A stretch of DNA of 64,000 bases from Adonisia turfae CCMR0081 (GTDB lineage: Bacteria > Cyanobacteriota > Cyanobacteriia > Phormidesmidales > Phormidesmidaceae). The DNA lies in NCBI RefSeq assembly GCF_011009555.1, contig NZ_QXHD01000004.1:7465118-7529117 (forward strand), read 5' to 3'. The notes under the pieces were generated by a model. That model was not told the origin of the DNA and did not search any database. It saw nothing but the letters and a program-made list of their open reading frames with translations. Below, in pieces: positions 4,431 to 61,356 of the stretch. The position numbers were made by a program, and so were the translations under genes. The first letter of the stretch is position 1, and the number at the start of each line of letters is the position of its first letter.

Positions 4431-4488
4431 TCTTCAGGTAAGGGGGGAACTCCCTTTATCGGTGAGGGTGGCTAATCTTCAGGTAAGG
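4399..4488 (+). repeat. Tandem 45-bp duplication over a stop codon
   Basis: Two adjacent 45-bp copies (about 4399-4443 and 4444-4488) differ at only a few bases. The first contains the last codons (GTPFIGEGG) and stop of the GIY-YIG gene; the second repeats them downstream. It is a local duplication, not a known element. Confidence 0.9.
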
Positions 4489-4512
4489 GGGAGAGTTTTG
4501 ACGGTCATGTTT

Positions 4513-5505
4513 TTAGTTGCGAACAATCTCAAGCCCAATATCAAATACTCGCCCGATGACATCTTCTATGGGGGGATCGGTAACGGTTAAATCATGGACT
4601 GGCAATTGGGCTAACACTTGGGATACGGTTTTGGTCAGGTCTTCTCTACGCACTAAAAGAACAACTTTGCAACCATCGATAGACTGAATTTCACCATAGG
4701 GTTCTAAAGAGGCAGCGGGAATTTCTTGGGCAAGCTCAGCAGTCACTTCACGATAGGGGGCAAACTGCTCAATCAGACTGTTCAAAGACCCATCATAAAT
4801 GAGTTGTCCTTGATAGATGAGTAAGACGCGATCGCAAAGCGCCGTAATATCAGCCATATAATGACTCGTTAGAACAATGGTTGCCTGGTAACGCCGGTTA
4901 TAAGCCTGCAAAAAATTTCGCACCGCCATTTGGGCATTGACATCCAGTCCCAATGTGGGCTCATCTAAAAACAACACCTGAGGATGATGTAACAGAGCTG
5001 CTAACATTTCAGCCTTCATCCGTTCTCCCAAAGATAACTTACGGACAGGCTGTGTAAGTTTATCGGTCAGGTCAAGCATCTTAGACAGTTCATGGATGCG
5101 ATCGCGTAGCTCTTGGTGGGATAGCCCATAGATCGCCCCATTAATCCGCAGTGAATCTAGGGTCGGTAAATCCCAAATTAGTTGCTGCTTTTGTCCCATG
5201 ACCAGAGTGATGTGCTCCAAAAAAGAACGCTGACGCTGAAAGGGGATCTGCCCAGCCACGCTTACCTGGCCAGACGATGGATAAATTAATCCGGTCAGCA
5301 TTTTTAACGTTGTGGTTTTACCGGCTCCATTGGGTCCCAAAAAACCAACCACTTCCCCTGGTTCTATGGAGAACGATACATTATTGACAGCCTTGACCTG
5401 ACGATATTGACGCTGGAAAAAGTGACGTAATGTTCCAGCTAGGCCAGGTTGCTTAATGGCCACTGGATAGACCTTGGTTAGGTTTTTCACTTCTATAGCA
5501 GGCAT
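4513..5505 (-). CDS. ABC-2 type exporter ATP-binding protein
   Basis: A 330-residue ATPase of the ABC-2 export class. It has Walker A GPNGAGKTT (57-65), a Q-loop near GQKQQLIWDLPT, signature LSLGERMKAEM, Walker B VLFLDEPTLGLD and switch TSHYM. The C-terminal 90 residues are a regulatory extension like that of DUF4162-type ATPases. Cyanobacterial homologues usually work with two six-helix permeases that export lipids or other amphiphiles. No permease is adjacent, so the partner must be encoded elsewhere and the cargo cannot be stated. The start is the ATG at 5505. It is transcribed alone, and two short tandem duplications lie just upstream. Confidence 0.92.
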   Translation of the reverse strand: MPAIEVKNLTKVYPVAIKQPGLAGTLRHFFQRQYRQVKAVNNVSFSIEPGEVVGFLGPNGAGKTTTLKMLTGLIYPSSGQVSVAGQIPFQRQRSFLEHITLVMGQKQQLIWDLPTLDSLRINGAIYGLSHQELRDRIHELSKMLDLTDKLTQPVRKLSLGERMKAEMLAALLHHPQVLFLDEPTLGLDVNAQMAVRNFLQAYNRRYQATIVLTSHYMADITALCDRVLLIYQGQLIYDGSLNSLIEQFAPYREVTAELAQEIPAASLEPYGEIQSIDGCKVVLLVRREDLTKTVSQVLAQLPVHDLTVTDPPIEDVIGRVFDIGLEIVRN

Positions 5506-5874: not shown

Positions 5875-6522
5875 ATGGCTGTCCGCAAACCCCACGGAAC
5901 TGTACTCAGCTTCATCGAAGCGTACTGGCGCAAACATCAGAACAGCCCTACGGTGAGAGAAATTACCACCGGTACAGCTCGCTCCCATGGCAGCATTCAA
6001 AACAGTCTGAAATGGTTAGAGCGAAACCAATATATTACTCGTCGCAAACGTACATCACGGGGTATTAAGGTCGTTAACTTCGAAGCCTACGACATTCCTC
6101 CCACTGAACTATCAGAGTTAGAAGGAATACCCATTCGCGGTGAAATTGCAGCCGGTTATTGCCACGAGCCTGCTACAGAAGACCATGGGTATCTCAACAT
6201 TGAGTACAACGGACGTAAGCCCAACGATTATGTCCTGAAAATTTCAGGAGATAGTATGGTGGGTGCCGGTATTCCTGATGGAGCCTATGTCGGCATTCGA
6301 CCTGTAGCTGATGATTACCAACCTGGGCCTGGTGAGATTGTTGCAGTTTATGTGGAAGGCCAAGGTGCTACCCTAAAACATTTTTTTCAAAAAGAGTCAG
6401 TGGTTGTTTTAGAGGCTGCCAATCCTAAGTATGAGCCGCTGATCTTTGATCTGGATGATTGTGAGTTACGGGTGCAAGGGACTCACATTTTTACCCACTG
6501 GCAGTCAACAGCGCTTAGTTAA
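5875..6522 (+). CDS. lexA: LexA-type repressor
   Basis: 215 residues, the usual LexA size. Residues 1-65 form a winged-helix domain (SPTVREITTGTARSHGSIQ, then KWLERNQYITR). Residues about 82-210 form the S24 peptidase-like domain. All features for RecA-stimulated self-cleavage are present: the Ala-Gly bond in EIAAGYC (A93-G94), the nucleophile S127 in SGDSMVGAGI, and the general base K168 in GATLKHF. It should therefore be a cleavable repressor. In some cyanobacteria LexA governs carbon, redox or motility genes rather than SOS, so its regulon cannot be assumed. The ATG at 5875 is 13 bases after a palindromic promoter element. Transcribed alone. Confidence 0.93.
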   Translation: MAVRKPHGTVLSFIEAYWRKHQNSPTVREITTGTARSHGSIQNSLKWLERNQYITRRKRTSRGIKVVNFEAYDIPPTELSELEGIPIRGEIAAGYCHEPATEDHGYLNIEYNGRKPNDYVLKISGDSMVGAGIPDGAYVGIRPVADDYQPGPGEIVAVYVEGQGATLKHFFQKESVVVLEAANPKYEPLIFDLDDCELRVQGTHIFTHWQSTALS

Positions 6523-6869
6523 AAGACAGATAGGTTCACCCTAAACGCTGTCTCTTTTCTAGAACTGATCGATCAATTTTGTATCAGAAAGAACTTTGTA
6601 TGCTGTAATTTTTTGAAGTTATCTACCGACAGGTGACTACTCTGTCCATAAGTTCATCCATGGGCTCCTTAATGGTGTAGATATGCATTGGTAATGCTGC
6701 GAGCCATGGCTGGAATGACCGTATAGGTGGGTTTTAACTGACTGTCAGGTAGCCACAATAGACATGTTGCATTGTTATGAACTCCATAAGATGTGAGCAG
6801 GTTTAATCAAAAATTCTGGATTTGGTAAATTGCATGGGAATTCTATAGGTATAAGTTTCTTCGTCACTG
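6523..6869. other. Intergenic region after lexA
   Basis: A weak hairpin (AGACAG...CTGTCT followed by CTTTTCT, about 6525-6561) may end lexA transcription. The rest shows no gene, RNA or clear repeat. Confidence 0.4.
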
Positions 6870-7223
6870 ATGCAGACTTCCCCCGGTCTGTATCCCTTTA
6901 GAACCATGCATCCAATCTTGAAAGACTGGTTACAGAACCTTGGCTGCCTTGTCCCCCTTGGATTTTTGGGCCTTTGCATGGCCTTCATTACGCACTGGGT
7001 ATCTACAGAAACAGGCCCAGCCAGGATAGTGATTGTATGGCAAGCCAGAATTCTAGAAGGTCAGTATTTCGATAAGGTCACGATGGCGGCTTTCATTTTG
7101 CCCGCACTCATCGGCGCATGGCTAGTATATGTTAGCTTCCGTCGATTTTTGACAAGACTCGGCGTCTATGATCGGCCAACAAATGCAGGCTTTAAACGTC
7201 CCAATGAGAAAATATATCGCTGA
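6870..7223 (+). CDS. Small two-helix membrane protein, unknown function
   Basis: A possible gene of 117 residues. Two hydrophobic segments stand out: about 25-44 (LVPLGFLGLCMAFITHWV) and about 72-92 (MAAFILPALIGAWLVYVSF). They are joined by a loop with an EGQYFDK turn and followed by a basic tail. The likelier start is the second ATG at 6906 (MHPILKDW), giving 105 residues, since the first twelve codons look non-coding and neither start has a clear ribosome site. It lies alone between lexA and the signalling cassette. I recognise no family, and it could be a chance frame. Confidence 0.5.
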   Translation: MQTSPGLYPFRTMHPILKDWLQNLGCLVPLGFLGLCMAFITHWVSTETGPARIVIVWQARILEGQYFDKVTMAAFILPALIGAWLVYVSFRRFLTRLGVYDRPTNAGFKRPNEKIYR

Positions 7224-7332
7224 TTCGATTGCACACAATTGCTGATTTAGGAGATGTACCGATCTAGAGCTATGGCTATTTACCGGTGTTTCATACCTAA
7301 AGTCATCCTAAGGATCAGCAATGTCGACTGAA

Positions 7333-9222
7333 CTAGTGGAGGGTGGCTACCCTACCTTTATCATTCTTAATATTATCCGTTAGCCAATGATGGGACCAAA
7401 CAGGCTGAGTGAATAGCTTAGCCATGGTTGTACTGTCGACCGGCTTAGAGAAGAGATAACCCTGGCCTAATTGGCAGCCAAATGTTCTCAACTGCTGTAG
7501 CTGTAGATCTGTTTCAATGCCTTCGGCAACAATATCCATTCCTAGGGTATTTGCCAGGGTGACAATCGCTTGGAAGATACCGACATGTTTGGGATCTTGG
7601 CCCAGCTGATTCACAAAAGCTCGGTCGATTTTAAGGGTATCGACGGGAAACTGAGTGAGATAACTCAAAGAGGAATAGCCTGTACCAAAGTCATCGATGG
7701 CCAGTTGGATGTTTTGCGATCGCAATCTTTCCAGAATAGATGCAGCTGATTTACTACTCTCCATAATGGCGCTTTCGGTAATCTCAAGTTGTAAGTTCTC
7801 AGGTTGCAGATCTGTGTCTGCTAACATCTGTTGAATGCGTTCTACCAGATCTGGTTGAGCGAACTGGCGTACCGAAAGGTTGACGCTTACCTTTAGTTGC
7901 TCTAAAGACGGATACTGCTGTTGCCACTGACGGAACTGTTCGCAAGCCTGACGCATCACAATTGCGCCTAAAGGAACAATTAATCCAGATGACTCAGCTG
8001 CTGGGATAAACTGGCTCGGTGGAATAAATCCCTGTTCAGGATGTTGCCAACGAACAAGCGCCTCCATGCCTCGGATTTCTCCAGTAGCAAGAGAGACAAT
8101 GGGTTGATAATGAACAATAAACTCCTGGCGGTCAATAGCCTGTCTGAGATTACTCTCCAACTGCACCTTTTCCAATGCCTGATCGTGCATGTGGGCATTA
8201 AACACACAATACGCTGCTATATTCCCCTCCGTCCTCCCTGGCAAAGTTAAACCTAGAGAATAAGCCTGAGAACAGGCAATGCTAGCATCTCGCAGAATGT
8301 GATCCGCTCTAGAATACTGGGGTTGTCCTAGGGTTATCCCCCATTTTGTTTGCAAAAAGATCTGATGGTGCTCAATAATAAACACCTTTGATAACTCTCC
8401 CTGAGCTTGTTTAGCCATGGCTAAACAAGTTTTCTGAGCAATCTCTTGGTTAGCCGCAAGGCCCTGTAGCAACACCACAAATCGATCACTCCCAATTCTA
8501 GCGATTACTGCCTGATCAGAAAAACAATGGTTAAGACGATGTGCCACCTGTAACAGTAGATCGTCCCCTACCAAGTGGCCAAATGCATTGGTAATACGTT
8601 GAAAGCGTTCACACGTTAAGCTCAAAACAGCATAGGTTTCCGATAAAAAATGGGTTTGTTCCATCGCCTGTTCTAAAACTTTGACGAATCCAGGTAAATT
8701 GAAGCAATCCGTAAGCCGATCGTGGGTGGTTTGATAAATCAGCTTTTCTTGCACTCGCTGACGTTCGGCCATCTCTTCCTGGAGTTGCAGAGTGCGTTCC
8801 ATAACCCGCTGCTCAAGTTGTTCATTGAGCATGTTTATCTCAGCCTGGGTCTGTTTAAGCGTTAAATGGGTAGAGATGCGGGCTAATACTTCCTCAAGTT
8901 GGAATGGTTTTGTGACATAGTCAACACCGCCAGATTCAAATGCTTTTACCTTATCGAGGGTCTCTCCCATAGCGCTGACAAAGATAACCGGAATCTCTTG
9001 AGTATTTTGACAACTTTTCAGTTGACGACAGATGGTATAGCCGTCCATATCTGGCATATTAATATCCAGCAAAATAAGATCAGGAGGGGCAGCTTCAATA
9101 GATTTCAGGGCCAATGCTCCACTAATAGCACAGCGAACCGTGTACCCTTGGCTAAGTAAAAGCTCGAACAATAGTTCAACATTTTGAAGAACATCATCAA
9201 TCAACAGAATATTACCGGTCAT
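7333..9222 (-). CDS. Response regulator with GGDEF and EAL domains
   Basis: 629 residues: a receiver (1-120, phosphoacceptor D53 in [11 protein letters not shown]), a coiled coil (about 125-165), a GGDEF domain (about 170-335) and an EAL domain (about 355-610). The GGDEF signature is degenerate, reading RIGSDRF, so diguanylate cyclase activity is unlikely. The EAL active site looks intact: MEALVRW, ITESAIM, IDDFGTGYSSL, LKIDRAF and VAEGIET. The predicted output is c-di-GMP hydrolysis to pGpG, gated by phosphorylation and possibly by GTP on the dead GGDEF. It is the last gene of a four-gene cassette, 52 bases after the hybrid kinase. Its receiver is closely similar to that kinase's N-terminal receiver, suggesting duplication. 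Confidence 0.94.
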   Translation of the reverse strand: MTGNILLIDDVLQNVELLFELLLSQGYTVRCAISGALALKSIEAAPPDLILLDINMPDMDGYTICRQLKSCQNTQEIPVIFVSAMGETLDKVKAFESGGVDYVTKPFQLEEVLARISTHLTLKQTQAEINMLNEQLEQRVMERTLQLQEEMAERQRVQEKLIYQTTHDRLTDCFNLPGFVKVLEQAMEQTHFLSETYAVLSLTCERFQRITNAFGHLVGDDLLLQVAHRLNHCFSDQAVIARIGSDRFVVLLQGLAANQEIAQKTCLAMAKQAQGELSKVFIIEHHQIFLQTKWGITLGQPQYSRADHILRDASIACSQAYSLGLTLPGRTEGNIAAYCVFNAHMHDQALEKVQLESNLRQAIDRQEFIVHYQPIVSLATGEIRGMEALVRWQHPEQGFIPPSQFIPAAESSGLIVPLGAIVMRQACEQFRQWQQQYPSLEQLKVSVNLSVRQFAQPDLVERIQQMLADTDLQPENLQLEITESAIMESSKSAASILERLRSQNIQLAIDDFGTGYSSLSYLTQFPVDTLKIDRAFVNQLGQDPKHVGIFQAIVTLANTLGMDIVAEGIETDLQLQQLRTFGCQLGQGYLFSKPVDSTTMAKLFTQPVWSHHWLTDNIKNDKGRVATLH

Positions 9223-19771: not shown

Positions 19772-20840
19772 GGGCTTTGGTGCGTGAATATTCTGTCAGA
19801 CAGATCAGTCCTTTAGGAGGTCGATCTTAGCCTTCAACAGGGTAGCTGTCCGGCATCCCCAAGTGAGTGAACTGGTTGATAATTGAACATTCCAACAGTA
19901 ATTCTGTCGTTTGATTCTCAATACATCGTGCAGACACGTCACCTGTGAAAATGGTTTTGAGTCGATACATCATGGTTTCACTCAAAGACCGTCGATGATA
20001 GTTAATCTCTTCTTTCCAGGTAGACCGTCCCTTTTTGCGAATAGCTCGTAGGTTTTCGTCGCGCGGATGAGGGTCCCCCTTGCGATTGCCATGGAACCAA
20101 ATTTTGGCATCCTTCCGGGGAGGAATGGCTGCGGTTGCTTCGCGCTCATCAATGGCATCGTAGCAATAGGTGCGGTCGTAGGCCCCATCGGCACTCACTT
20201 GGTCAATATCGTCTGGAATTTGGTCCAATAGATCTGGCAACACCTCGCCATCACTCATTGAATTTGAGGTGACGACGGCAGCCAGAATCTCTCCGGTGTG
20301 CTCATCGACCCCCAAATGTAGTTTGAGCCAGGTACGACGTTTACTCACCCCGTGCTGACGGGTTTTCCATTCCCCTTCTCCATACACTTTAATACCCGTA
20401 CTATCGACCACCACATGACGACCACCGGATGCAGGCTTAGTCGGTACGTCAATCGTTAGCGTCTTTTGGCGACGCGACAGGGTTGTATGCACCGGTAACT
20501 CGACCGATACTCCCATCAGCTCGAAGATAGACCCCGCAAAGCCAATTGTTTGACGTAAGGCCAGCCCATAAATCACTTTGAAGGTCAATAACGTTTGAAT
20601 GGCTAAGTCACTGTACTCCTTGGAGGCTCCAGGTTTCTCTGTCTTTTGAGTGGTTTTCCACCCGGCAATCACCTCATCACTCAGCCATAAGGTCAGACTT
20701 CCTCGCTTCACCAAGGCGGCGTTATACTCAGACCAGTTGCGGAGTTTGTAGGGGCGTTTCATCGGTACCGTGTTTGTGTGGTAACTGCACTTTACCGGCT
20801 TCTATGGCTCCGCAGCTACCTTATTCACGCACCAAAGCCC
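19772..20840 (-). mobile_element. IS5-family insertion sequence
   Basis: Perfect 19-bp inverted ends, GGGCTTTGGTGCGTGAATA at 19772-19790 and its complement at 20822-20840, enclose one transposase gene. The ends start with GGCTTTG, like those of the IS903 group of the IS5 family. The flanks (AGACTCAG on the left, TTTTGAAC on the right) show no target duplication of 9 or any other length. This suggests a deletion or recombination after insertion. Confidence 0.9.
19827..20762 (-). CDS. IS5-family transposase
   Basis: 311 residues, full length and uninterrupted. A DDE catalytic core is visible: the first Asp in HVVVDSTGIKVYGEGEW, the second in DQVSADGAYDR, and the Glu in YHRRSLSETMMYRLK. The N-terminal part, with KVIYGLALRQTIGFAGSIFE and HTTLSRRQKTL, matches the IS5/IS903 pattern. 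The gene fills most of the element between the 19-bp inverted ends, so the copy could still be mobile. The ATG at 20762 is the natural start. Confidence 0.95.
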   Translation of the reverse strand: MKRPYKLRNWSEYNAALVKRGSLTLWLSDEVIAGWKTTQKTEKPGASKEYSDLAIQTLLTFKVIYGLALRQTIGFAGSIFELMGVSVELPVHTTLSRRQKTLTIDVPTKPASGGRHVVVDSTGIKVYGEGEWKTRQHGVSKRRTWLKLHLGVDEHTGEILAAVVTSNSMSDGEVLPDLLDQIPDDIDQVSADGAYDRTYCYDAIDEREATAAIPPRKDAKIWFHGNRKGDPHPRDENLRAIRKKGRSTWKEEINYHRRSLSETMMYRLKTIFTGDVSARCIENQTTELLLECSIINQFTHLGMPDSYPVEG

Positions 20841-21040: not shown

Positions 21041-21120
21041 GTCGGGTAAAGCGATAGGTTTTATCTATAGCCTACCCCTCCTCCCCTCAGAACCGTGCAT
21101 ACAGCTTGCACTGTACAAAG
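21041..21120 (-). mobile_element. Relic of a group II intron 3' end (domains V-VI)
   Basis: Minus-strand GCACGGTTCTGAGGGGAGG is typical of the 3' half of domain V and the following linker of bacterial group II introns. It is followed by a domain VI-like hairpin (stems GGGTA/TACCC and ATAG/CTAT around an A-rich loop) and the end CCCGAC. The 5' half of domain V is damaged (GTACAGTGCA instead of a GAGCCGTGTGCA-like strand), and no intron body or reverse transcriptase lies upstream. This is a decayed tail, judged by eye. Confidence 0.5.
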
Positions 21121-21156
21121 CTTAATCAAAATCGATACTTCAGTGATGCTTCACTA

Positions 21157-47468: not shown

Positions 47469-48359
47469 ATGACAACAGCAACTATAGACCCACTGGTTAA
47501 ATACAAAACCCTACCTATCTGGGCAGAAACAACGTTACCAGAATCGTTTCAAACTCAGCACAATACAAAGCCAGGCACCTGGGGAAAAATCACAGTATTA
47601 GCAGGCCAATTGCAGTATGAGGCCCTAAATGAGGCTGGAGAGATCCTGTCTACCGACATCATCACCCCACAGCACACAGACTTCTTTGTATCACCAGGAG
47701 CCTGGCATCGGGTCAAGCCTCTAGGACCCCTACAGTGTTTTGTTGAGTTTTACTGTCGCTCCGAAGACTACTTTCAAAAGAAATATCATTTTGCAGCGCC
47801 TCACCGAGATATCCAGGCGCTCATTCAAGGACCTTTGGCAGACTGTCAGGCGATGAACGTCTTAGATTTAGGTTGCGGGAAAGGTCGCAATTCTACCTAT
47901 TTATACGCTAAGGGGCATCAGGTGACAGCATTGGATAAAAATACCAGTGCTATTCAGCATCTTCGGGAGATTATTCAAACGGAAAAGGTTGGGGATAGAT
48001 TTCAAGCCCGGGTGCACAACATTGAATCAGCGGCGCTTGATGACTACTACGATTTGATTATTTCCACGGTTGTTTTTCAGTTTTTGAGGTATAAAACTCT
48101 ATCCCATGTGATTGAGAACATGCAGGCTCAAACGAAGCCCCAGGGCTATAACTTTATTATTGCCCCAGTTTCATCGTCGGAGTTTCCCTGTCCCCTCAAA
48201 TTTCCGACTACCTTGGTGCCCCAGGAACTGCGTGACTATTACAAGCACTGGCATATTTGTGAGTATCAAGAACAAGTGGGCAAATTTCATCGCAAAGATA
48301 GCAACGGCAACCCTATTGAATCTATCTTTGCTACTCTGCTGGCTCAGAAACGTACTTAG
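47469..48359 (+). CDS. tehB: TehB methyltransferase with N-terminal DUF1971
   Basis: 296 residues, the long form of TehB. Residues about 8-95 are the DUF1971 cupin-like domain (LPIWAETTLPESFQ, TWGKITVLAGQLQYE, FFVSPGAWHRVKPLGP). Residues about 105-296 are a class I SAM methyltransferase (MNVLDLGCGKGRNSTYLY, VTALDKNTSAIQHL). TehB methylates tellurite or selenium compounds and confers resistance in H. influenzae and E. coli. The natural substrate in cyanobacteria is unknown. The small Cys-rich protein upstream suggests metalloid or oxidant stress. The only candidate ribosome site is inside the tandem duplication just before the ATG. Confidence 0.93.
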   Translation: MTTATIDPLVKYKTLPIWAETTLPESFQTQHNTKPGTWGKITVLAGQLQYEALNEAGEILSTDIITPQHTDFFVSPGAWHRVKPLGPLQCFVEFYCRSEDYFQKKYHFAAPHRDIQALIQGPLADCQAMNVLDLGCGKGRNSTYLYAKGHQVTALDKNTSAIQHLREIIQTEKVGDRFQARVHNIESAALDDYYDLIISTVVFQFLRYKTLSHVIENMQAQTKPQGYNFIIAPVSSSEFPCPLKFPTTLVPQELRDYYKHWHICEYQEQVGKFHRKDSNGNPIESIFATLLAQKRT

Positions 48360-48494: not shown

Positions 48495-48520
48495 GTAGAT
48501 CACTCTAGTAGATCACTCTA
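48495..48520. repeat. 13-bp tandem duplication over the ntpA stop
   Basis: GTAGATCACTCTA occurs at 48495-48507 and 48508-48520. The second copy contains the stop codon of the subunit A gene (TGA on the minus strand, 48513-48515). Confidence 0.9.
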
Positions 48521-50345
48521 ATTGTGATAGCTCACTGAGGGTAACGGCATCCGCTAGACCATAAATTTGCTTCAAGTAGTCCGTATACTCAGAAGATTTT
48601 TTTCGAGAATAGTTGAGGTTCTTATACAGACCGATCAGGTGAGTAAAATAATCTCGGGCTGACGATTTATTGTCAAACTTATAACATCTAGTCACCAGGT
48701 CATTGACCAGGTTAAAGCTCTCTTTCTGACGGGCTAGGGGTGTGCTGGAATCAACGGCATCAAAGGCATCCTGTTGTAGATAGACCATGTCCACAAATAG
48801 GGATTTTTGATACGTCACATAGTCATCCAGGGTCACCCCATCCTCACCCGTGACTTGCATCATCTGATAAATACTATCCCCTTGTTTCAAGAGACTGTTC
48901 ATGGCCTGGACCTGGTCAACCCAGTCAGAGGCAATCTCCTTTTTTAACCATGGTGTGAGTTGGGTCAGGTAGCGCGACCACGAAATTAACGGATCGATAG
49001 CTGGATAAAAACGCTTGTATGCCCGATCATAGCTCAGACCTAAGAAGGTTTTAACGGTGCTCATGGTGGATTGGGTGACCGGTTCTTCAAAGTTTCCTCC
49101 GGCCGGAGAAACAGTGCCTACCATGGTGAGACTGCCCACACTGCCATCATTGGTGCGAATCACTCCAGAGCGCTCGTATACTCCTTTAATTGAAGAGTCT
49201 AAATAAGCTGGAAACGCTTCCTCCCCAGGAATTTCCTCCATCCGCCCTGAGGTTTCTCGCATGGCCTGAGCCCAGCGAGAGGTGGAATCCGCCAGGAGGA
49301 GAACGTCATAGCCCATTTGACGATAGTACTCACCTAAGGTGATACCGGTATAGATGGACGCCTCGCGGGAGGCCACTGGCATGGAAGACGTATTGCAAAT
49401 AATGATGGTACGCTCCATCAGTGAGGCCCCTGTCTTTGGATCTTTCAGTTCTGGAAATTCAGTGATGGTTTCTACCACTTCACCCGCTCGCTCACCACAA
49501 GCAACAACCAGAACAATATCAACGGCGGCATATCGAGACAGGGTGTGCTGCAATACGGTTTTGCCAGCCCCAAAAGGCCCTGGGATACAGGCAGTGCCCC
49601 CACGGGCAATCGGGAAAAAGGTATCAATAATCCGCTGGGTTGTCATCAGCGGCTCGTCAGGGTAAAGTCGCTCTGAGAATCGCTGTGTCAGCAGCCGTTG
49701 TGGCACCGATCGCCGTACAGGCCATTGTTGAGTCATATCCAGGGTATGCTCTCGACCACTGGCCTCCCGGATGCGAGCGATCGGCGTGTTCACGGTGAAA
49801 CTCCCCTGTTGGATCCAGATCAGCTCCACCTCACCCGGTTGATCGAAAGGGACCATAATTTTATGGCGAAATCGACCTTCCTGAACCGTACCGAGAGTAT
49901 CTCCAGCCTTGAGTTGAGCACCCAAATGTACTGTCGGCACAAATGACCATTTCTTCCGCTCATCCAGGGCCTTGACATCGACACCCCGAGGTAGAAACGT
50001 ACCGTAGGATACTGCCAACAGATCTAGCGGGTTTTGTAGACCGTCATATACTTGACCGAGTAACCCCGGCCCCAAGCTGACAGAGAGTAACTGGCCCGTT
50101 TGCTCCACAGGATCGCCAATTCCCACCCCCCGCGTACTTTCAAAGACCTGGGCATCGGCTTCATATCCCCGTACCCGCAGCACTTCAGCCTTGAGTCTCT
50201 CAGTCCGACCGTCATTCTGCCGCTGGGGGGAAATGTAGACCACTTCATTCTTGGTCAAGGGACGCCCGTCCGTCGGGGCCATTTTAATGGTGACAATATC
50301 TTCTTGAACAGCAACAACCCTAGCTGGCTTGTACATTTCAGACAT
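48513..50345 (-). CDS. ntpA: V/A-type ATPase catalytic subunit A
   Basis: About 610 residues. Walker A is GPFGAGKTV, Walker B is in VLLLADSTSRWAQAM, and the non-homologous insert of V/A-type A subunits (about 110-200) is present. SSMPVASREAS and EEAFPAYLDSS are typical of the family. It hydrolyses or makes ATP in the V1 head. The ATG at 50345 is chosen because GGAGAG lies just before it; an upstream ATG (50375) would overlap the previous gene by 20 bases. It is the last gene of the operon. Its stop lies in a 13-bp tandem duplication. Confidence 0.96.
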   Translation of the reverse strand: MSEMYKPARVVAVQEDIVTIKMAPTDGRPLTKNEVVYISPQRQNDGRTERLKAEVLRVRGYEADAQVFESTRGVGIGDPVEQTGQLLSVSLGPGLLGQVYDGLQNPLDLLAVSYGTFLPRGVDVKALDERKKWSFVPTVHLGAQLKAGDTLGTVQEGRFRHKIMVPFDQPGEVELIWIQQGSFTVNTPIARIREASGREHTLDMTQQWPVRRSVPQRLLTQRFSERLYPDEPLMTTQRIIDTFFPIARGGTACIPGPFGAGKTVLQHTLSRYAAVDIVLVVACGERAGEVVETITEFPELKDPKTGASLMERTIIICNTSSMPVASREASIYTGITLGEYYRQMGYDVLLLADSTSRWAQAMRETSGRMEEIPGEEAFPAYLDSSIKGVYERSGVIRTNDGSVGSLTMVGTVSPAGGNFEEPVTQSTMSTVKTFLGLSYDRAYKRFYPAIDPLISWSRYLTQLTPWLKKEIASDWVDQVQAMNSLLKQGDSIYQMMQVTGEDGVTLDDYVTYQKSLFVDMVYLQQDAFDAVDSSTPLARQKESFNLVNDLVTRCYKFDNKSSARDYFTHLIGLYKNLNYSRKKSSEYTDYLKQIYGLADAVTLSELSQLE

Positions 50346-50355
50346 CGGACTCTCC

Positions 50356-51039
50356 TCATACAAACAGCTGATCAAATTCGCCCACCCCAGCGTCCACCAG
50401 GTTCTTGAACCGCTCTACGGCCAACGGGCCATCGTATCGAACCCATCGATCAATCAAGTCCCAACGCATTACATAAATTACCACTGCTTCAAAATCGAAG
50501 TAGTGCTCTGCTCCTAACTGACCTAATCGCTGCCAAACGTAGCTAAATAACACCCGTTCTAACGCCACTGATTCATCGGCATGCAACAACTGTTGGGCTT
50601 CTAACAGCCAGGGGAAATTCCCCTGTAGTCGAAAGGCGGGTTCTGTCCAATGACGTTCAATGTGTTTAACCCAGCGCCCATACCCCCAGGGTTCTCCCAC
50701 CGGTGCGGTTTTCTCGCCTCGCTGACGACGGCGTAGGGCGGCGACAATCGTGTGTAGCTCTAAGCGAAACGCGACGACTTCTCGCAGGAGCGGATTTTTG
50801 ACCTGCTGAAAGAATTGCTCTGCTGCTGCTACAATTTCCGCATCTGTTCGCGATATGGGCACATGGTGCCAACGAATTAAGGACTGTATTTGCTGCAGGC
50901 GTACAGCATCTTCCTCACTCAGCATCTTCAGACGAGCTTCCAGTTTAAATCGCGACAACGGCGTCTGCTGGGCTTCAAAAAGTTCGCCAAGATAGGGCAG
51001 GCTTGCCATCAGGGTGACGTACTGGTTGGCCTTAAACAT
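50356..51039 (-). CDS. DUF2764 protein, probable V-ATPase subunit C-like
   Basis: 227 residues of the DUF2764 family, known from V-ATPase operons of Chlamydiae and Bacteroidetes, where it sits between E and A. It begins YVTLMASLPYLGELFEAQ, the usual N-terminus, and is mostly helical (LREVVAFRLELHTIVAALRRR; WVKHIERHW). It is thought to replace the central-stalk or socket subunit C, but this is not shown here. It lies 8 bases from subunit E and 10 before the subunit A start, so it is tightly within the operon. Confidence 0.85.
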   Translation of the reverse strand: MFKANQYVTLMASLPYLGELFEAQQTPLSRFKLEARLKMLSEEDAVRLQQIQSLIRWHHVPISRTDAEIVAAAEQFFQQVKNPLLREVVAFRLELHTIVAALRRRQRGEKTAPVGEPWGYGRWVKHIERHWTEPAFRLQGNFPWLLEAQQLLHADESVALERVLFSYVWQRLGQLGAEHYFDFEAVVIYVMRWDLIDRWVRYDGPLAVERFKNLVDAGVGEFDQLFV

Positions 51040-51047
51040 TGTTATAC

Positions 51048-51743
51048 CTATTTGACAATGCCTTCTAGAAGTGCGCGGAAACGGGGTTGAAGATACTGAA
51101 GAAGTACATCGGCAATGGCGCGATCGCTAACATCTAGCACAACTTCCTGATCCACCAGTCGGATCCTCAGGCCCCCGTGATTATCGTTAGCCACACCAAA
51201 GGTGATGCCTTCTTGCAGTGCTTCTTGACTAATCAGACGGATAAAATGGGTTAATATCCCCTGTTCCAATTCCTCAGGGTTACGACTGAGTTCCTCAAAC
51301 CCTGCCACATTACGAGGCAACAAGATCTCCACTGATTGCGCATCGTCAATCTCGTCTTGAGCTCGGCCTGCTATTTCTAGAATAAGTCGCTGTAAGAGTT
51401 CTGGTTTCTGAGCTTCGACACCGACTAAGCGACGCACCTCCCCGGCAAATCGCTGGCTCAACTCCATTTTGAGAGAGAGCATGGCATCACGGGCGGCAAC
51501 TTCTAGCGCTTGATGACCCGCTTTTTCCAAACTGTCTGCCTCTTGTCTGGCCTTAGTCAGAACCTCACTCGCTTTTTCATGGGCTTGCTCAATAATTAAC
51601 TCGGCTCGTAATTGGGCATCTTTTACAATCTGTTCCCCTTGAGCCCGACCACTGGCGACGCCTTCATCTCGCAGTCGTGCAACTAGGGCATCAACCCCAT
51701 GGGCGGCGGGTATATCTGATCGGTGAGATTTATTGTTTCGCAC
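51048..51743 (-). CDS. ntpE: V/A-type ATPase peripheral stalk subunit E
   Basis: 231 residues. A long N-terminal helix (about 18-100) has heptad-like Ala/Glu/Lys content (QLRAELIIEQAHEKASEVL), followed by a mixed C-terminal domain (about 130-231; GGLRIRLVDQEVVLDVS) that binds the catalytic head. It forms the stator linking V1 to subunit I. The GTG at 51743 is the likely start. The gene is 42 bases after subunit K, the gap containing most of an 18-bp duplication, and 8 bases before the DUF2764 gene. Confidence 0.9.
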   Translation of the reverse strand: MRNNKSHRSDIPAAHGVDALVARLRDEGVASGRAQGEQIVKDAQLRAELIIEQAHEKASEVLTKARQEADSLEKAGHQALEVAARDAMLSLKMELSQRFAGEVRRLVGVEAQKPELLQRLILEIAGRAQDEIDDAQSVEILLPRNVAGFEELSRNPEELEQGILTHFIRLISQEALQEGITFGVANDNHGGLRIRLVDQEVVLDVSDRAIADVLLQYLQPRFRALLEGIVK

Positions 51744-51766
51744 GGTTACATTTTCCCCCTTTTTTA

Positions 51767-51802
51767 CCTATGGCAGACCATCTGCCTATGGCAGACCACC
51801 TG
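51767..51802. repeat. 18-bp tandem duplication over the ntpK stop
   Basis: CCTATGGCAGACCATCTG and CCTATGGCAGACCACCTG (51767-51784 and 51785-51802) differ at one base. The stop of the subunit K gene (51786-51788) lies in the second copy. Confidence 0.9.
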
Positions 51803-52229
51803 CCGCTACCAGAGCGAAGACAAAGGCAAACACGGCGAAACCTTCAATAATGGCGGCAGGTGCCAGGGAAAGCCCAAAGATTTCAGGTTTGGCTTTTGCT
51901 CCTGCGATCGCAGAGGCACAGGCTTGACCTTGATAGATCGCCGATAGCAGAAACGCCAGACCGGATCCCACACCAATACTAAATAACCCGGCAGCATTAT
52001 CCACGGTCACAAGACGGTTTAGGGAAAACAGAACCACAATGCCATAAATCGACATGGAAGAGGGCAAAGCTGATAAACCAACAAAGCGACCATATCCACC
52101 TTTAACCTCAAGCATTGCCCCAATGGCCGCTTGTCCAGCGATCTTACAGCCAAGGGCGCTGCCAATTGCCCCCAATGACACAGGAGCGTATATGCCTATC
52201 CACCCCAGGAGAATGATAAATTCATTCAC
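51786..52229 (-). CDS. ntpK: V/A-type ATPase membrane rotor subunit K
   Basis: 147 residues forming two helical hairpins (four membrane segments), the double-hairpin rotor type. The ion-carrying Glu is in APAAIIEGFAVFAF of helix 4. Helix 2 reads LPSSMSIYG where the sodium-binding E. hirae protein has LPGTQG, so a Gln ligand for Na+ is replaced by Met; helix 3 has YQGQACASAI. The start is a GTG overlapping the subunit I stop by 4 bases. It builds the ring that turns as ions pass. Confidence 0.92.
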   Translation of the reverse strand: MNEFIILLGWIGIYAPVSLGAIGSALGCKIAGQAAIGAMLEVKGGYGRFVGLSALPSSMSIYGIVVLFSLNRLVTVDNAAGLFSIGVGSGLAFLLSAIYQGQACASAIAGAKAKPEIFGLSLAPAAIIEGFAVFAFVFALVAAGGLP

Positions 52230-54028
52230 GGATTACTCTCCTTTTTTGCAAATGCCTGAAAGGGATATCCTTCATCAGTGATACCCCAATTAAAAAACTC
52301 AATAAAATTCAACCGCAAACCATGGACAAACCCGCTAATGATCCCCAAGGCTAAATTAATGCCATGGCCCAGTAACAGAATCAAAATGCTGAGCAACAAC
52401 CCTAATCCTGGCACTGACTGATACACCTGGTGGGCTAGCTGGTTGAAGGTTAAGGCCAATGAGGCACTGGCTAATCCTAGCGCGAATAATCGTAGATAGC
52501 TCATAATATCCCCAAACAGTTTGGAGATCTGGGATAACGAACCCAGGCCAGCCACCAACCGTAAGGGCAGATTTTTTTGGCGACTGCCGAGAAATCCGCC
52601 TAAGAAAATCACTAAGAAACCGCCCAGTAGTAAGCCAATGCCTAGATGGTGCCCGACGGCTTCTCCCAGCCCTAGTGACAAGGTTAATCCGCCAGCAATA
52701 ACAACAATCCAACCCAGTGGTTTCGCCTTTCCGGCAAATCCACCGGCACCAAGGGCGGCGATGATGTTCGCGAACGTAATATGCAAACAGCCAATTGCGA
52801 TCGCAAGCTGCATCATGGCATCGTAATTGTTGATATTTAGCACCTGAAAACGGGTGAGCCATGATCCAATGCGCGGGATCTGTTCAGGTCCGGCACCGAA
52901 GTAGCTACCGACCAAAACACCATAGATGATGGCCGCTATCAATCCCATTACCGATAGGATCCGGAAATGTCGACCGCCTGCACTGCTCCCCATGGACGGC
53001 CAGTAACAAGCCACAATGACTGCAAGCACCAGGGCATAGCCAGCATCCGAGAGAATCATCGCAAAAAAGACGGCAAACGAGAAGAAAACCGCAATCGACG
53101 GGTCCCAGGTACGATAGCCGGGGGTTTGGTAAAAGCTGACCAAATCTTGCCCACTACTCAGCTCCGGCGGATTATCCATCAGGGTGGGTGGGGCATCGTC
53201 AGGACGGGCCGGTTCAACCAGGAGTGCCAGTTCCTGTTGTTCAGCAAACGCTTCCAATTGCTCTAACTCTCGGGCAGGCATCCAACCCTGGACCATAAAG
53301 ATGCCAACTTCCTTACGGGTTTGGGTACTCGCATACTGAATCGCTGCCCGATCGTCAGCCCGCGCCAGATTCTTAGAGAATAAATGTATCCAGCGACTTA
53401 GGGCCTCATGTTCAGCATCCAAGTCTTCTAACTGGATCTCAACCCGTTGTAACTCATGCTTTAAATCCGTTAGCGGCACTGCCCCGGTGTACGTGCGAGC
53501 AACGGGCAGGGCGTTAGCGGGAGGCTCCTGTTTAGAAATGACTACAACATAGGTAAATCGATGATCCGCAGAGACCTGTTGCCAAGGCCACTCCAAATCC
53601 TGGAGAGATTTCATCTTCGCGTAGGGCACCCGATAAAACCAGAGTCGGTAACCACCCAGCTGGCCGAGATCGGGTAAGGTAAAATCACCCCAGGGCTCTA
53701 AATCTCGGATGCGATTCACTAAAAAATATCGCCTGTCCTCGGCCTCCCGACGGTTTTGTTTATTGGCCAAAGCCGCTGCTAACACGTGATCAAAGTCAAA
53801 ATCCACATGCTTCAACACCTGATGTCGCCTACGCCGTACATCCATCAGATATAGCAGCGCTTCATGGGCATCTTCATCCCGCACAAATAGCTCTGCCTCT
53901 GATTCTTGAGCAGGGGGCTGGAGTGGGATCAAGTGGAGGCATCCCAAACGCTGTAGGCCCTCAAGTACCTTCTCTTGATCGTAACTTACCCCGCAAAGGG
54001 TGACTTTGTTTAAGGGAACAATACTCAT
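52226..54028 (-). CDS. ntpI: V/A-type ATPase membrane subunit I
   Basis: 600 residues. The N-terminal cytoplasmic half (about 1-290) is helical and binds the stator. The C-terminal half has about seven membrane segments, with the essential Arg in SYLRLFALGLASASL of the ion path. It is somewhat shorter than the 650-residue average but complete. ATGA overlap with subunit D (54025-54028) and a 4-base overlap with K show tight coupling. It forms the stationary half-channels beside the K ring. Confidence 0.94.
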   Translation of the reverse strand: MSIVPLNKVTLCGVSYDQEKVLEGLQRLGCLHLIPLQPPAQESEAELFVRDEDAHEALLYLMDVRRRRHQVLKHVDFDFDHVLAAALANKQNRREAEDRRYFLVNRIRDLEPWGDFTLPDLGQLGGYRLWFYRVPYAKMKSLQDLEWPWQQVSADHRFTYVVVISKQEPPANALPVARTYTGAVPLTDLKHELQRVEIQLEDLDAEHEALSRWIHLFSKNLARADDRAAIQYASTQTRKEVGIFMVQGWMPARELEQLEAFAEQQELALLVEPARPDDAPPTLMDNPPELSSGQDLVSFYQTPGYRTWDPSIAVFFSFAVFFAMILSDAGYALVLAVIVACYWPSMGSSAGGRHFRILSVMGLIAAIIYGVLVGSYFGAGPEQIPRIGSWLTRFQVLNINNYDAMMQLAIAIGCLHITFANIIAALGAGGFAGKAKPLGWIVVIAGGLTLSLGLGEAVGHHLGIGLLLGGFLVIFLGGFLGSRQKNLPLRLVAGLGSLSQISKLFGDIMSYLRLFALGLASASLALTFNQLAHQVYQSVPGLGLLLSILILLLGHGINLALGIISGFVHGLRLNFIEFFNWGITDEGYPFQAFAKKESNP

Positions 54029-54624
54029 GCAGCCACTCCCTTCTTCCGCTTGGCAATCTTTGAGTTCACCACAGCGGCCCGTGCGGCATCCGACAAATAA
54101 ATCTGGATTTTTTTAATATTTGCCTGGGCTCTTGGGATCAGCACCTTATCAAACAGGTTGACTCGCTGGGTAATCTTGCGAGCAGCCTGATTTAGCAACA
54201 CTTGCCGTTGCTCAGCCACCTGTAATTGCAGGCGTAATTCCACCGCTGTTGTGAGGGCGTCCACCACACGCTCGACCCAGTGAGGTCTGCCCAAGAAAGC
54301 ATACTGGCGCACTTCTATATCAACCTTCTCCAACTTAGGCAGACGGGTTCCCACAACATTTTCTTCCACTATCTGCACCCCAACGACCTTAACAATATCG
54401 GTCAGATCTACCTCCTGAGTTGATAGCATCAACAGCTCGCTGGCAATCAGAGGATCTAACTCTCCCAGCTGCTGGCGAACATCCATGAGCCTGCGTCTAG
54501 CTCTGGCCTGCTCAGCCAGTAACTGACGGCGTTTCAGGTCGAGAGATGGCAAGACGTCTTTATAGGTTTTGAGTTGTCGTTGAAGTTTGGTAAGAGACGC
54601 CTTATTTAATGCCAACCTTGCCAT
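54025..54624 (-). CDS. ntpD: V/A-type ATPase central stalk subunit D
   Basis: 199 residues with the two long antiparallel helices of subunit D (about 1-75 and about 120-185). Features include LNKASLTKLQRQLKTYKDV at the start and LNQAARKITQRVNLFDKVLI near the end, the family signature for the shaft that rotates in the A3B3 head. It overlaps subunit I by ATGA and lies 12 bases after subunit B. No subunit F gene follows it, in contrast to many bacterial V/A operons. Confidence 0.93.
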   Translation of the reverse strand: MARLALNKASLTKLQRQLKTYKDVLPSLDLKRRQLLAEQARARRRLMDVRQQLGELDPLIASELLMLSTQEVDLTDIVKVVGVQIVEENVVGTRLPKLEKVDIEVRQYAFLGRPHWVERVVDALTTAVELRLQLQVAEQRQVLLNQAARKITQRVNLFDKVLIPRAQANIKKIQIYLSDAARAAVVNSKIAKRKKGVAA

Positions 54625-54636
54625 GGTCGCCTCCTA

Positions 54637-55986
54637 TTACTGCATCTCTTTTGGAAAGTACTTGTCAATCAGCGCCTGTTTCATCAACAATTCTTGAGGT
54701 TCAAAGCACTCGGCTAACGTTTTCCACCCCAGGTCAAGCGCCTGCTCAAGGGAAATAGAGACATTAATGTCCATGAAGCGCTGTTTGAATAGCTCACCAA
54801 ATTTCAAGAGCTTATGATCAAAATCAGACAGTTCAAATGCCATCGCCTGCTTCTGTTCAGCATCTTTGGCATTGGAGTAAAAGCGAACCATCGTATTCAT
54901 AATCTGACTATGGTCTTCGCGAGTCGCCTTACCAATAACATGCTGCTTAAGTCGTGACAACGAACCAAAAGGATCAATCACCCCATCATGGAGATAGAAT
55001 TGCCCCTCGGTGATGTACCCCGTATTGTCTGGCACTGGATGGGTGACATCATCCCCAGGCATTGTGGTCACGCTAAGAATAGTCACTGATCCCCCCTGGG
55101 CATAATCACAGGCTTTCTCATAGCGACGAGCCAGCTGGGAGTATAGATCACCCATATAGCCCCGATTTGACGGTACCTGATCCATGGCAATACCGATCTC
55201 TTTAAGGGCATCGGCATAGGCGGTCATGTCTGTCAGCAATACCAACACCCGCTTCCCTTGTTCCACAGCAAAACGTTCCGCTACCGCCAGGGCCATGTCG
55301 GGAATCAGGGTACGTTCCACAATGGGATCAGATGCCAGGTTAACAAACATCACAGTGCGAGAGAAAACACCGGCATCTTCAAAGGTGGTGCGAAAAAAGT
55401 GGTAATCATCAAAAATGAGACCGAGTCCGCCAAAGACCACAATGTCTGCATCAGCCTGAATGCCAATGCGAGCTAGGAAAGGGTTAAACGGCTCGCCAGC
55501 GACAGAGAAAATGGGTATCTTCTGACTCTCGACCAGGCAATTAAACACATCAATCATCGGCACATCGGTGCGGATCATCTTAGATGCCAACACCCGCCGC
55601 ATGGGATTAACGGACGGTCCACCAATGGGGACTTTAGAATCCTGTGATAGATCGGGTCTGCCATCAATGGACTCCCCGGTACCGCGAAATACCCGCCCTA
55701 GAATGTTGTCAGAATAGGTAACCTCCATGGGATGCCCTAAAAAGCGAACAGACGAATTTGTCGCCACACCTTTCGTGCCACCAAACACTTGAAGAGCAAC
55801 CGTATCATGCTTAATGTTAATAACCTGAGCCAGAGATAGGCTATCCTCATCATCGCCTTCCACCACAGCTAAGTCGCCATAGCGCGGCCCAGTATCTTTC
55901 AGGTAAGCACTCTCAGGCACTTGCACCCGCATGATGTCGCCAACGATCTCAACTACTTTAGAATAACGAACGAGAGTTTGTGGCAT
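54637..55986 (-). CDS. ntpB: V/A-type ATPase subunit B
   Basis: About 449 residues, non-catalytic head subunit. The family run VATNSSVRFLG, FRGTGESIDGRP, GGPSVNPMRRVL and PMIDVFNCLVESQKIPIF is complete. A true Walker A is absent, as expected. The frame is open to a GTG at 55995, but the ATG at 55986 (MPQTLVRY) is likelier. It is the first gene of the operon, after an 800-base non-coding stretch that probably holds the promoter. In Chlamydia, B follows A; here B leads and A is last. Confidence 0.95.
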   Translation of the reverse strand: MPQTLVRYSKVVEIVGDIMRVQVPESAYLKDTGPRYGDLAVVEGDDEDSLSLAQVINIKHDTVALQVFGGTKGVATNSSVRFLGHPMEVTYSDNILGRVFRGTGESIDGRPDLSQDSKVPIGGPSVNPMRRVLASKMIRTDVPMIDVFNCLVESQKIPIFSVAGEPFNPFLARIGIQADADIVVFGGLGLIFDDYHFFRTTFEDAGVFSRTVMFVNLASDPIVERTLIPDMALAVAERFAVEQGKRVLVLLTDMTAYADALKEIGIAMDQVPSNRGYMGDLYSQLARRYEKACDYAQGGSVTILSVTTMPGDDVTHPVPDNTGYITEGQFYLHDGVIDPFGSLSRLKQHVIGKATREDHSQIMNTMVRFYSNAKDAEQKQAMAFELSDFDHKLLKFGELFKQRFMDINVSISLEQALDLGWKTLAECFEPQELLMKQALIDKYFPKEMQ

Positions 55987-56798
55987 AAGAAACACTCTGG
56001 GCTAAAAGATGGACACCCTAAGGACTAAATATCTTAACAAAAATGGTATTTTTTATTACTTGAAGCGAAACAGAAAACTTAAAAAACTTAGTAATATTCA
56101 AGTCTAGCTGGAGCAAAATCTTGAACAGAGCATCTAAGGAGATCTTGAAACCATAATTTCAGTTCATTAAGCCATACACCAGCCAAATAACAAGTAAGTA
56201 CATCAGCTCTGGTCTACTTACTGAAAACAAAACAAATCGTTAGCAAAGATTCAAACTTGTCTGAGATTAATGAACAACGACCAACAAGATATCATTTTAC
56301 TCACTCTGAACCATAGCAACACACCAAGTGTAAACACGGATCAGCAAAACGACTGCACTCAATCAAGCAAATAAACTAATCTCAATGAACCCATGCAATA
56401 ACATTGCCTTATCTCCAACAGAATTTAAGGTTTTCTAAATAGATTCAATCACCTTTCTCTCATCTTTCTCATCAAAGCAGAATATTTTCTTTTATTACCC
56501 TCACCTTTCGAAAGAAGAGATATACAATAACAAGACTGTATGTCTGTGGCTAGCGTCACAATCATCAATAACAGAGGTGATTTCAGAGATTTCAGGAATA
56601 AAGATGCATCTTTATAAATGTCAGGGTATCTTAACTTCTCTATGCCGTATTTATAGATATCAGCGGTGTCAGAAAAATCAAGATAATCAGGTGCTGTTAT
56701 ACAGCTATACAGCCTTAATCAGTCACCAATCCCAGGTCTTCTAACACATTTGGGACTAGAGGTAGGATAGGCTCTTTTAAGGTCGCAACAACCAATCC
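55987..56798. other. Long AT-rich leader region of the V/A-ATPase operon
   Basis: 812 bases without a credible gene. It contains an 8-bp inverted repeat AGTAAGTA/TACTTACT (56193-56200 and 56215-56222), CTTTCTCAT twice near 56455-56472 and ATACAGC twice near 56700. It presumably includes the operon promoter and perhaps a long 5' leader. Confidence 0.55.
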
Positions 56799-59961: not shown

Positions 59962-61356
59962 TTATTTCGCAACAGGCTGTTGCTCCTGATTAGTTACAGT
60001 CTGGTTACTAGCAAATACCCATCGCAGCATCGGAGGAGCCACAAAGGTGGTGGCAATCACCATCAACACAATGGCAACATTCAAGGAACCGGTTAATGTC
60101 CCTGTGGTGGCCCCCAGACCTGCAAATACTAAACCCACTTCTCCCCGTGGCACCATGCCAGTACCAATGGCTAGCCGATTCACATTCTCTTTAGAAAAGA
60201 CAAAATATCCAGCGGCTAGTTTGCCCAAAATGGCAATCACAATTAGGAATGCTGCTATCACTAAACCAGTTCGACTCTCAGGATTCGCCAAGTTCAGGAC
60301 ACTCAAGTCAGTTTTGGCCCCAATGGACACAAAGAATACCGTTGCAAATAGAGCAACTAAAGGCTCACAGGCCTTCTCTAAAGCTGCCGTTGCTTTTGTA
60401 TTGCCAAGAATTATACCGGCTGCAAAACAGCCAAGGATTTCTTCCAAGCCAATCACATTCGCAATCGTGCCCATCAACGATAGAAAGATAATGGAACCGA
60501 TCAGCACACTATACGGATTACTGAATCTGCTCAGAAAGTTGATGTAGCGGGGACCAAAAACCTTATTCAAGACAATGGCTGATATTACAAAAAGTGTAGC
60601 GCTGACAATGGTGCCAATGACGCTAGAAATCTCCACTGTTCCATGCTCGGCAATACCGATGGCCACGGCTAAAATAGCAATGCCAAGAATATCGTCTAAA
60701 ACGGCAGCACCGAGAATAATTTGCCCTTCCTTGGTGTTCAATACTCCCATATCTTGCATGATTCGAGAGGTAATGCCGATACTGGTAGCCGTTAGTGCTG
60801 CCGCCGCAAAAATTGATGCGATCGCGGATAGATGAAAGATCGAAGTCAGACCCACAAACCCGGCTACAAACGGGAGAATCACCCCTGCCACAGCGACTGA
60901 TGCCGCCTGGGGACCCACCTTGATTAACTCTTCGAGATCAGCTTCCAGACCAATCTTAAAGAGCAAAACCCCCACACCAAGCTCGGCATATTGATTCAGT
61001 AAAATCCTTATCGGACCCGCAAAAACTTCTTGAATTGTCGTAGTGTCACTACCAGAAATTAGCTGAACAGCGGCCACGGTCCAATCAGCGACTTCCCCTC
61101 CATTACCCAAAACAATACAATGAATACCTGAAACACCCAGAATAAAACCAGCAATCAGTTCACCTAGAACTGCAGGCAAACTCAAGCGAATAGCAAGTTC
61201 GCCAAAAAGCTGAGCAAACAGAAAAACGACAACGGTCACAAATGCAACTGCTGCGGCTAACGCTTTAGCATAGAACTCGCTTTCAACTCCAACAGCTGAA
61301 GCTAGCAGCGGAGTAAGCACAGAACTCGTGACAACAGAAAATGAAGAAAGAATCAT
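59962..61356 (-). CDS. CPA2-family cation/H+ antiporter
   Basis: 464 residues with about thirteen membrane segments. CPA2 motifs are clear: LAVELGVGVLLFKIGLEAD-like text (AELGVGVLLFKIGLE), the ion site AAVLDDILGIAIL with two Asp, and GMVPRGEVGLVFAGLG. A pair of Asp in that position is common in electrogenic Na+/H+ antiporters (NapA-like). No KTN/RCK domain is fused. It is the third antiporter family in the window. The ATG at 61356 opens directly into the first helix. Confidence 0.93.
   Translation of the reverse strand: MILSSFSVVTSSVLTPLLASAVGVESEFYAKALAAAVAFVTVVVFLFAQLFGELAIRLSLPAVLGELIAGFILGVSGIHCIVLGNGGEVADWTVAAVQLISGSDTTTIQEVFAGPIRILLNQYAELGVGVLLFKIGLEADLEELIKVGPQAASVAVAGVILPFVAGFVGLTSIFHLSAIASIFAAAALTATSIGITSRIMQDMGVLNTKEGQIILGAAVLDDILGIAILAVAIGIAEHGTVEISSVIGTIVSATLFVISAIVLNKVFGPRYINFLSRFSNPYSVLIGSIIFLSLMGTIANVIGLEEILGCFAAGIILGNTKATAALEKACEPLVALFATVFFVSIGAKTDLSVLNLANPESRTGLVIAAFLIVIAILGKLAAGYFVFSKENVNRLAIGTGMVPRGEVGLVFAGLGATTGTLTGSLNVAIVLMVIATTFVAPPMLRWVFASNQTVTNQEQQPVAK

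Follow-up and report, generated by a model that had tools for sequence, protein, structure and literature searches.

A chlamydial-type V/A-ATPase operon of rotated gene order in the cyanobacterium Adonisia turfae

The ATPase operon of the window

We analyzed a stretch of 64,000 nucleotides, hereinafter the window, from the cyanobacterium Adonisia turfae CCMR0081 (positions 7465118-7529117 of contig NZ_QXHD01000004.1, which comprises 7.69 Mb of a genome of 8.66 Mb). The window contains seven adjacent open reading frames (ORFs) on the minus strand, from 55995 to 48513, that encode the subunits of a rotary ATPase of the V/A type in the transcription order B-D-I-K-E-DUF2764-A. Profile matches for all seven ORFs bear out this order, which had been read from the letters alone in a preliminary description. 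The genes, with their best matches and expectation values (E), are:

54637-55995, minus strand: subunit B, the first gene (NF002555, E 1.8e-217)
54025-54624, minus strand: subunit D, the central rotor (NF002565, E 1.5e-56; PF01813, E 2.1e-35)
52226-54028, minus strand: subunit I, the stator subunit a/I (NF004429, E 2.9e-63, below the cut-off; PF01496, E 9.3e-15)
51786-52229, minus strand: subunit K, with two hairpins (NF007200, E 1.1e-50; alignments)
51048-51743, minus strand: subunit E, the peripheral stalk (NF002424, E 1.3e-20, below the cut-off)
50356-51039, minus strand: DUF2764 protein, proposed subunit C/d (PF10962, E 1.4e-10)
48513-50375, minus strand: subunit A, catalytic, with the P-loop GPFGAGKT (NF003220, E 9.8e-233)

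The matches of A and B to the V/A-type models NF003220 and NF002555 are both over the cut-off. The translation of subunit I contains the motif MSYLRLFALGLA, and the model of subunit E, with a predicted local distance difference test (pLDDT) score of 79.5, structurally matches V-ATPase subunit E with Z values up to 9.4. The DUF2764 gene, which scores 41.8 bits against a PF10962 cut-off of 24.1, adjoins E and A in the absence of F; this is the gene content of the DUF2764, or chlamydial, type of V/A-ATPase to which the operon had initially been assigned. The initial observation that F is missing extends to the whole genome, where a search for F, and not for G, gave no match over the cut-off (best E 0.05). 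F is likewise absent in 10 of 12 relatives, the other two having it in a separate operon, and no match to the conventional subunit C (AC39, PF01992) was found in the genome. An F-type ATPase is also encoded, with one alpha gene over the cut-off (E 2.2e-247).

The tight coupling of the genes that had been noticed at the outset holds for D-I and I-K, which overlap by 4 bases each. The DUF2764-A overlap of 20 bases is conditional on a TTG start of A and may not be real: an in-frame ATG ten codons downstream, at 50345, removes it and, judging from the translation, is the likely start.

Gene order, phylogeny and spread

To place this order, we scanned named genomes with an alignment of subunit B and, from at least 569 relatives, compared the 80 best-ranked loci together with the window. 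All seven genes are present in 68 of these 81 loci, and 67 of the 68 have the order B-D-I-K-E-DUF2764-A, 64 of them as read directly and three more (L033, L065 and L084) after a tblastn check of over-long ORFs. The sole exception, a metagenome-assembled genome (MAG) of Magnetococcales (L026, 3937-11338), reads D-I-K-E-DUF2764-A-B, a third opening of the same circle. The rotated order is standard in the closest relatives of the window operon, namely Alpha- and Gammaproteobacteria, Gemmatimonadota and some Planctomycetota. It also occurs in two plasmid loci (Tateyamaria and Qingshengfaniella), three Planctomycetota genomes and one copy in a Chlamydiota MAG (G469), where canonical and rotated operons lie on different contigs (L159 and L160) and a binning error is possible.

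The order E-DUF2764-A-B-D-I-K, which we denote canonical, was found in 12 Chlamydiota, 7 Planctomycetota and 2 Bacteroidota loci and in one cyanobacterium (L014). All 12 complete canonical-type Chlamydiota loci that were fetched show it (in one, D and I are approximately 5 kb apart; a 13th locus is ended by the contig end), in agreement with the chlamydial order given in the preliminary description. A second canonical-type cyanobacterium (L013) has E-DUF2764-A-B-D-I, with K upstream on the opposite strand. This displacement of K, and a D-I pair facing away from B in L057, are changes other than rotations. The Firmicutes order, in Peptoclostridium and Enterococcus records, is I-K-E-C-F-A-B-D. 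The window operon is thus chlamydial in gene content and a rotation of the chlamydial type in gene order, the rotated order being a property of its own clade.

For phylogenetic analysis, 27 near-duplicate, partial or superseded rows were removed by hand from 130 loci with a known order, leaving 103, of which 87 have full-length A and B. Trees were built for 67 hand-picked rows (quick) and for 38 hand-picked rows (LG+C20, joined A and B), and the support values below refer to the latter. The rotated operons form one clade (100/99), recovered in the quick tree as well. Its sister group consists of the two canonical cyanobacterial operons (the two together at 100/100), and the canonical operons of Chlamydiota, Planctomycetota and Bacteroidota fall outside both. 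The older nodes have the canonical state to either side, which indicates that the rotated state is derived; and because the rotated clade is a single branch nested among canonical-order operons, the rotation is older than the cyanobacterial copies. At least three order changes are required on the tree: Firmicutes to canonical, canonical to rotated, and rotated to the Magnetococcales order. One old rotation would explain the order of the entire rotated clade.

In the preliminary description, the operon was gained laterally and permuted afterwards, within this cyanobacterial lineage. Only the first half of this scenario survives. Lateral gain is supported by rarity, base composition and clade placement, and the operon looks foreign: its guanine plus cytosine (GC) content is 50.5%, compared with 46.8% in the rest of the window, a level that just 1 of 114 overlapping tiles reaches. 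A local permutation could draw on the canonical-order operons that do exist in cyanobacteria (L014, and L013 with its displaced K), but the nearest groups already have the same order, the rotated cyanobacterial copies lie inside the multi-phylum rotated clade and the canonical ones outside it. Uniting all cyanobacteria in one clade costs 90.7 log-likelihood units and is rejected by the approximately unbiased test (p 0.00019), so that permutation in place is refuted on the present data and we give it hardly any credence. Nor do cyanobacterial V/A-ATPases share one order by vertical descent; rejection of the single clade implies at least two separate acquisitions of this ATPase by cyanobacteria. 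It also seems quite improbable that the rotated operon is old and vertical in cyanobacteria, lost in most lineages and exported to others. The rotated cyanobacterial copies, from four groups, do form one group (97/73), itself joined with the Magnetococcales row (100/99), and the canonical sister pair is likewise cyanobacterial. However, presence in so few of the sampled genomes demands very many losses, the cyanobacteria are nested in a mostly proteobacterial, poorly resolved set, and the GC content of the operon is high for the window.

Under the scenario that we favor, a canonical E-C-A-B-D-I-K operon would have been duplicated in tandem and would then have lost its outer genes, the simplest route to B-D-I-K-E-C-A. 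The rotated lineage would stem from that single event, prior to any transfer to cyanobacteria, and a cyanobacterial lineage would then have received the operon, already rotated, from a donor in the rotated-order lineage that is found mainly in Proteobacteria. Several observations weigh against this scenario. Because the 80 loci were taken from the top of a larger set, they are biased to close kin; the node of the rotated cyanobacteria alone is weak, and the branch nearest to them is the one Magnetococcales MAG. Furthermore, tblastn searches (E 0.05) detected no remnants of a duplicate operon in the window, L026 or L019, the weak extra rows being cross-matches between A and B. In a Methyloprofundus MAG (L081, 6106-8034), a second copy of the first 46 residues of D precedes the complete gene by 1.2 kb; it sits at the B-D boundary, which is also where the circle is opened in L026, and may be a trace of duplication and loss.

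The distribution of the ATPase is patchy. As had been surmised, the V/A type is rare in cyanobacteria: subunit B of this type was detected in 3 of 386 genomes sampled from the phylum and 5 of 63 genomes of the family, and DUF2764 in 8 of 95 relatives, the window included in each case. Within the genus, operon genes are present in G004, G006 and G007, with no match in G001, G002, G003 and G005, two of which are 70-75% complete. A search for an empty site in the same-genus genomes that lack the operon found the flanking hydrolase of G003 on a 5 kb contig from which the second flank is absent. In other phyla, matches over the cut-off were obtained in 88 of 92 Chlamydiota, 13 of 199 Planctomycetota and 6 of 398 Pseudomonadota genomes. 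The ATPase is accessory in nature, and several copies are broken. Locus L012 (G075, 5879-8788) is a decayed canonical cyanobacterial operon of which only fragments of E, DUF2764, I and K are left, with no A, B or D found; in L019 (G225, 3427-4641), an IS605-type OrfB/TnpB transposase gene is inserted between DUF2764 and A; a Halomonas plasmid copy ends within E; L022 has no A in its 21 kb; and L034 has B only. Near copies, with B identity of 71-75%, are carried by three plasmids and are annotated merely as V-type ATP synthase subunits. The rotated operons on the Tateyamaria and Qingshengfaniella plasmids (L106 and L107) adjoin a carbamate kinase gene, and their flanks also contain genes for acetate kinase or arginine deiminase; these genes could be substrate-level sources of ATP beside an ATP-driven pump.

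The neighbors on both sides of the window operon are conserved in a same-genus genome (L018). Together with the large contig, these conserved flanks argue against contamination, and this possibility, along with assembly error, was rejected. Promoter-like and terminator-like sites are at shuffle level (8 vs 10.3 and 8 vs 7.6, respectively). A TehB-type methyltransferase gene with a DUF1971 domain (47469-48359, plus strand) is convergent with the operon; elsewhere in the window, a group II intron match just above the gathering score (21041-21125, minus strand; 41 vs 40 bits) lies near a DDE transposase gene (19827-20762). An antiporter-hydrolase-acetyltransferase cluster resembling the one upstream of the operon recurs in L202 (7277-10651, G007:C95), and none of the seven ATPase genes was matched in the 19.9 kb around it. 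Clustering of flanking ORFs across the loci, aimed at a partner gene, gave only ABC-type proteins and genus-level synteny.

The DUF2764 protein as a candidate subunit C

An AlphaFold model of the DUF2764 protein, built from 43 aligned relatives, has a pLDDT of 91.5. In a VIA-align comparison, the first seven rows for this model are all V-ATPase subunit C/d (human, Thermus, yeast and rat), with Z of 9.8-10.9 and root-mean-square deviations of 3.9-4.2, whereas the next row has a Z of 5.0. The alignment spans 194-204 of the 227 residues, in a predicted model that is shorter than the three-lobed C/d fold of about 320-350 residues. Among canonical DUF2764 proteins, 5 of 23 are matched by the Pfam AC39 profile (best E 4.4e-6, below the cut-off); in the rotated lineage, 2 of 43 are (best E 0.009). 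The controls gave matches for none of 10 D subunits and for at most one of 33 E subunits (AC39 being absent among the best 25 of 72 families). In 19 genomes, this profile gave four weak matches, none over the cut-off, two of which (in G046 and G468) fall in the DUF2764 gene itself. According to PMC2936114, homologues of C, F and G are missing from the ATPase clusters of Chlamydia, Borrelia-like bacteria, Bacteroides and anammox bacteria. Given the C/d-like fold, the weak AC39 matches and this reported lack of C, we propose that DUF2764 is a shortened subunit C.

It is unlikely, albeit conceivable, that DUF2764 is instead a helical protein unrelated to C, either an assembly factor or a piece of the stator. 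Several results speak in this direction and against the identification with C: the AC39 profile does not match the DUF2764 protein of the window; Foldseek alone gave no match to the model at E below 0.001 and listed Thermus subunit C in third place (E 1.1, TM 0.41); a profile search of the PDB sequences with DUF2764 gave none; an hhalign comparison with a two-sequence Firmicutes C alignment yielded a probability of 0.5%; and helical models may reach such Z values, up to about 13, by chance. An unrelated protein, however, would leave unexplained why the top rows are uniformly C/d over most of the chain and why the AC39 profile picks up canonical relatives and none of the D controls. Moreover, DUF2764 is placed between E and A, as C is in L111 and L112, and none of the 19 genomes has a separate AC39 gene over the cut-off.

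If DUF2764 is C, the Firmicutes, canonical, rotated and Magnetococcales orders correspond to a single circle, cut open at four different points. Seven genes on one strand can be arranged in 5040 ways, and any one arrangement accounts, through its rotations, for 7 of these, but an end-to-end block move also yields a rotation, so that any chance estimate hangs on the rearrangement model. The circular relation hints at tandem duplication and loss but does not prove it. Altogether, we consider it quite likely that the window encodes a second, compact rotary ATPase that was gained laterally, with its order ready-made, from a rotated-order lineage and in which DUF2764 takes the place of C/d. In a literature search that was thin on subscription papers, we found no account of the rotated order, of a V/A-ATPase in such a cyanobacterium or of DUF2764 as subunit C.

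The pumped ion and known rotary ATPases

The subunit K of the window has a carboxylate in the second hairpin only (E129), the first hairpin having none in its second helix. Lack of a carboxylate in the first hairpin of K favors ATP-driven pumping over synthesis. In alignments, the column of Gln65, a Na+ ligand of E. hirae K according to PMC2359735, is occupied by Met, in LPSSMSIYG, so that the full set of Na+ ligands is not present; the other compared polar positions, Ser, Gln100 and Glu129, are kept. The principal Glu is conserved in all 117 aligned K rows. In the following counts, which exclude four repeat fetches of genomes already represented (L020, L160, L180 and L181), Gln occupies this column in all 23 canonical non-cyanobacterial loci. 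In the rotated lineage, 50 of the 72 loci from outside the cyanobacteria have it as well; the 22 without it are Ruegeria and kin, two Pelagibius, Alteromonas facilis and Thiohalocapsa. None of the 10 rotated cyanobacterial loci has Gln, with Met or Asn instead, and two of the three canonical cyanobacterial loci have His, the third, with Gln, being the decayed L012.

Because the Gln ligand is lost in all 10 rotated cyanobacterial loci, we predict that the cyanobacterial enzyme is an ATP-driven proton pump. The predicted product would consist of A3B3, D, E, I, a K ring and DUF2764 as C/d, without F, and would operate beside the ordinary F-type ATP synthase, pumping H+ rather than Na+ with one carboxylate per two-hairpin K. 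There is an appreciable, even if minor, chance that the pump moves Na+ and that the Met-for-Gln change is harmless. The retained Ser, Gln100 and Glu129 are compatible with this alternative, as is the gene for a CPA2 Na+/H+ antiporter about 4 kb upstream of the operon (59962-61356). Reshuffling of ligands in two-hairpin K subunits is allowed for in PMC2359735, and loss of one ligand is therefore no proof of H+, which counts against our prediction. Set against Na+ is the contrast between uniform retention of Gln65 in canonical non-cyanobacterial loci and its absence from the rotated cyanobacterial ones; we thus keep to the prediction of a proton pump.

These lines can be combined in a tentative synthesis that seems to us slightly more apt to fail than to hold. 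The supposed lack of C in the chlamydial type would be a detection failure, DUF2764 being its shortened C, and the V/A operons would be a single circle, E-C-(F)-A-B-D-I-K, opened before I, E, B or D through repeated tandem duplication and loss or through circular intermediates. Cyanobacteria would have captured the enzyme twice, giving up the Na+-site Gln each time in a convergent turn to proton pumping.

The local story of one cyanobacterium that reshuffled an operon gives way here to a single old rotation that appears to mark a mobile V/A-ATPase lineage spread over several phyla. The proposed identity of DUF2764 bears on the ATPases of Chlamydia, Borrelia-like bacteria, Bacteroides and anammox bacteria, including the V-type genes of B. 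fragilis that are described in PMC10790697 as essential for fitness in deoxycholate, DUF2764 having been left without an assignment there. The repeated loss of the Na+-site Gln provides a natural series for testing ion switching in rotary pumps.

Among the known systems, the DUF2764-type ATPases of Chlamydiota, Bacteroidota and Planctomycetota share with the window operon the seven subunits, the lack of F and a two-hairpin K with one Glu, and the B and D of the window match the same NCBIfam models. The window order, however, is opened between A and B and theirs between K and E, and the Gln ligand of K is lost in the cyanobacterial copies. The rotated type of Ruegeria, Roseibium, Chromatiaceae, Methylococcales and Oceanospirillales is the same as the window operon in gene set, order and clade but, unlike it, mostly keeps the Gln of K, which Ruegeria and kin have lost too. 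The Firmicutes type, which has the same circular order as the window provided that DUF2764 is C, differs in the presence of F, a full-length C (324-333 residues vs 227) and distant A and B. Finally, the N-ATPase, an additional rotary ATPase that some cyanobacteria possess, is likewise accessory, laterally spread and found beside the F-type enzyme, as described in PMC4154653; it belongs, however, to the F-type family, has other subunits and was not found here, the A and B of the window matching V/A models.

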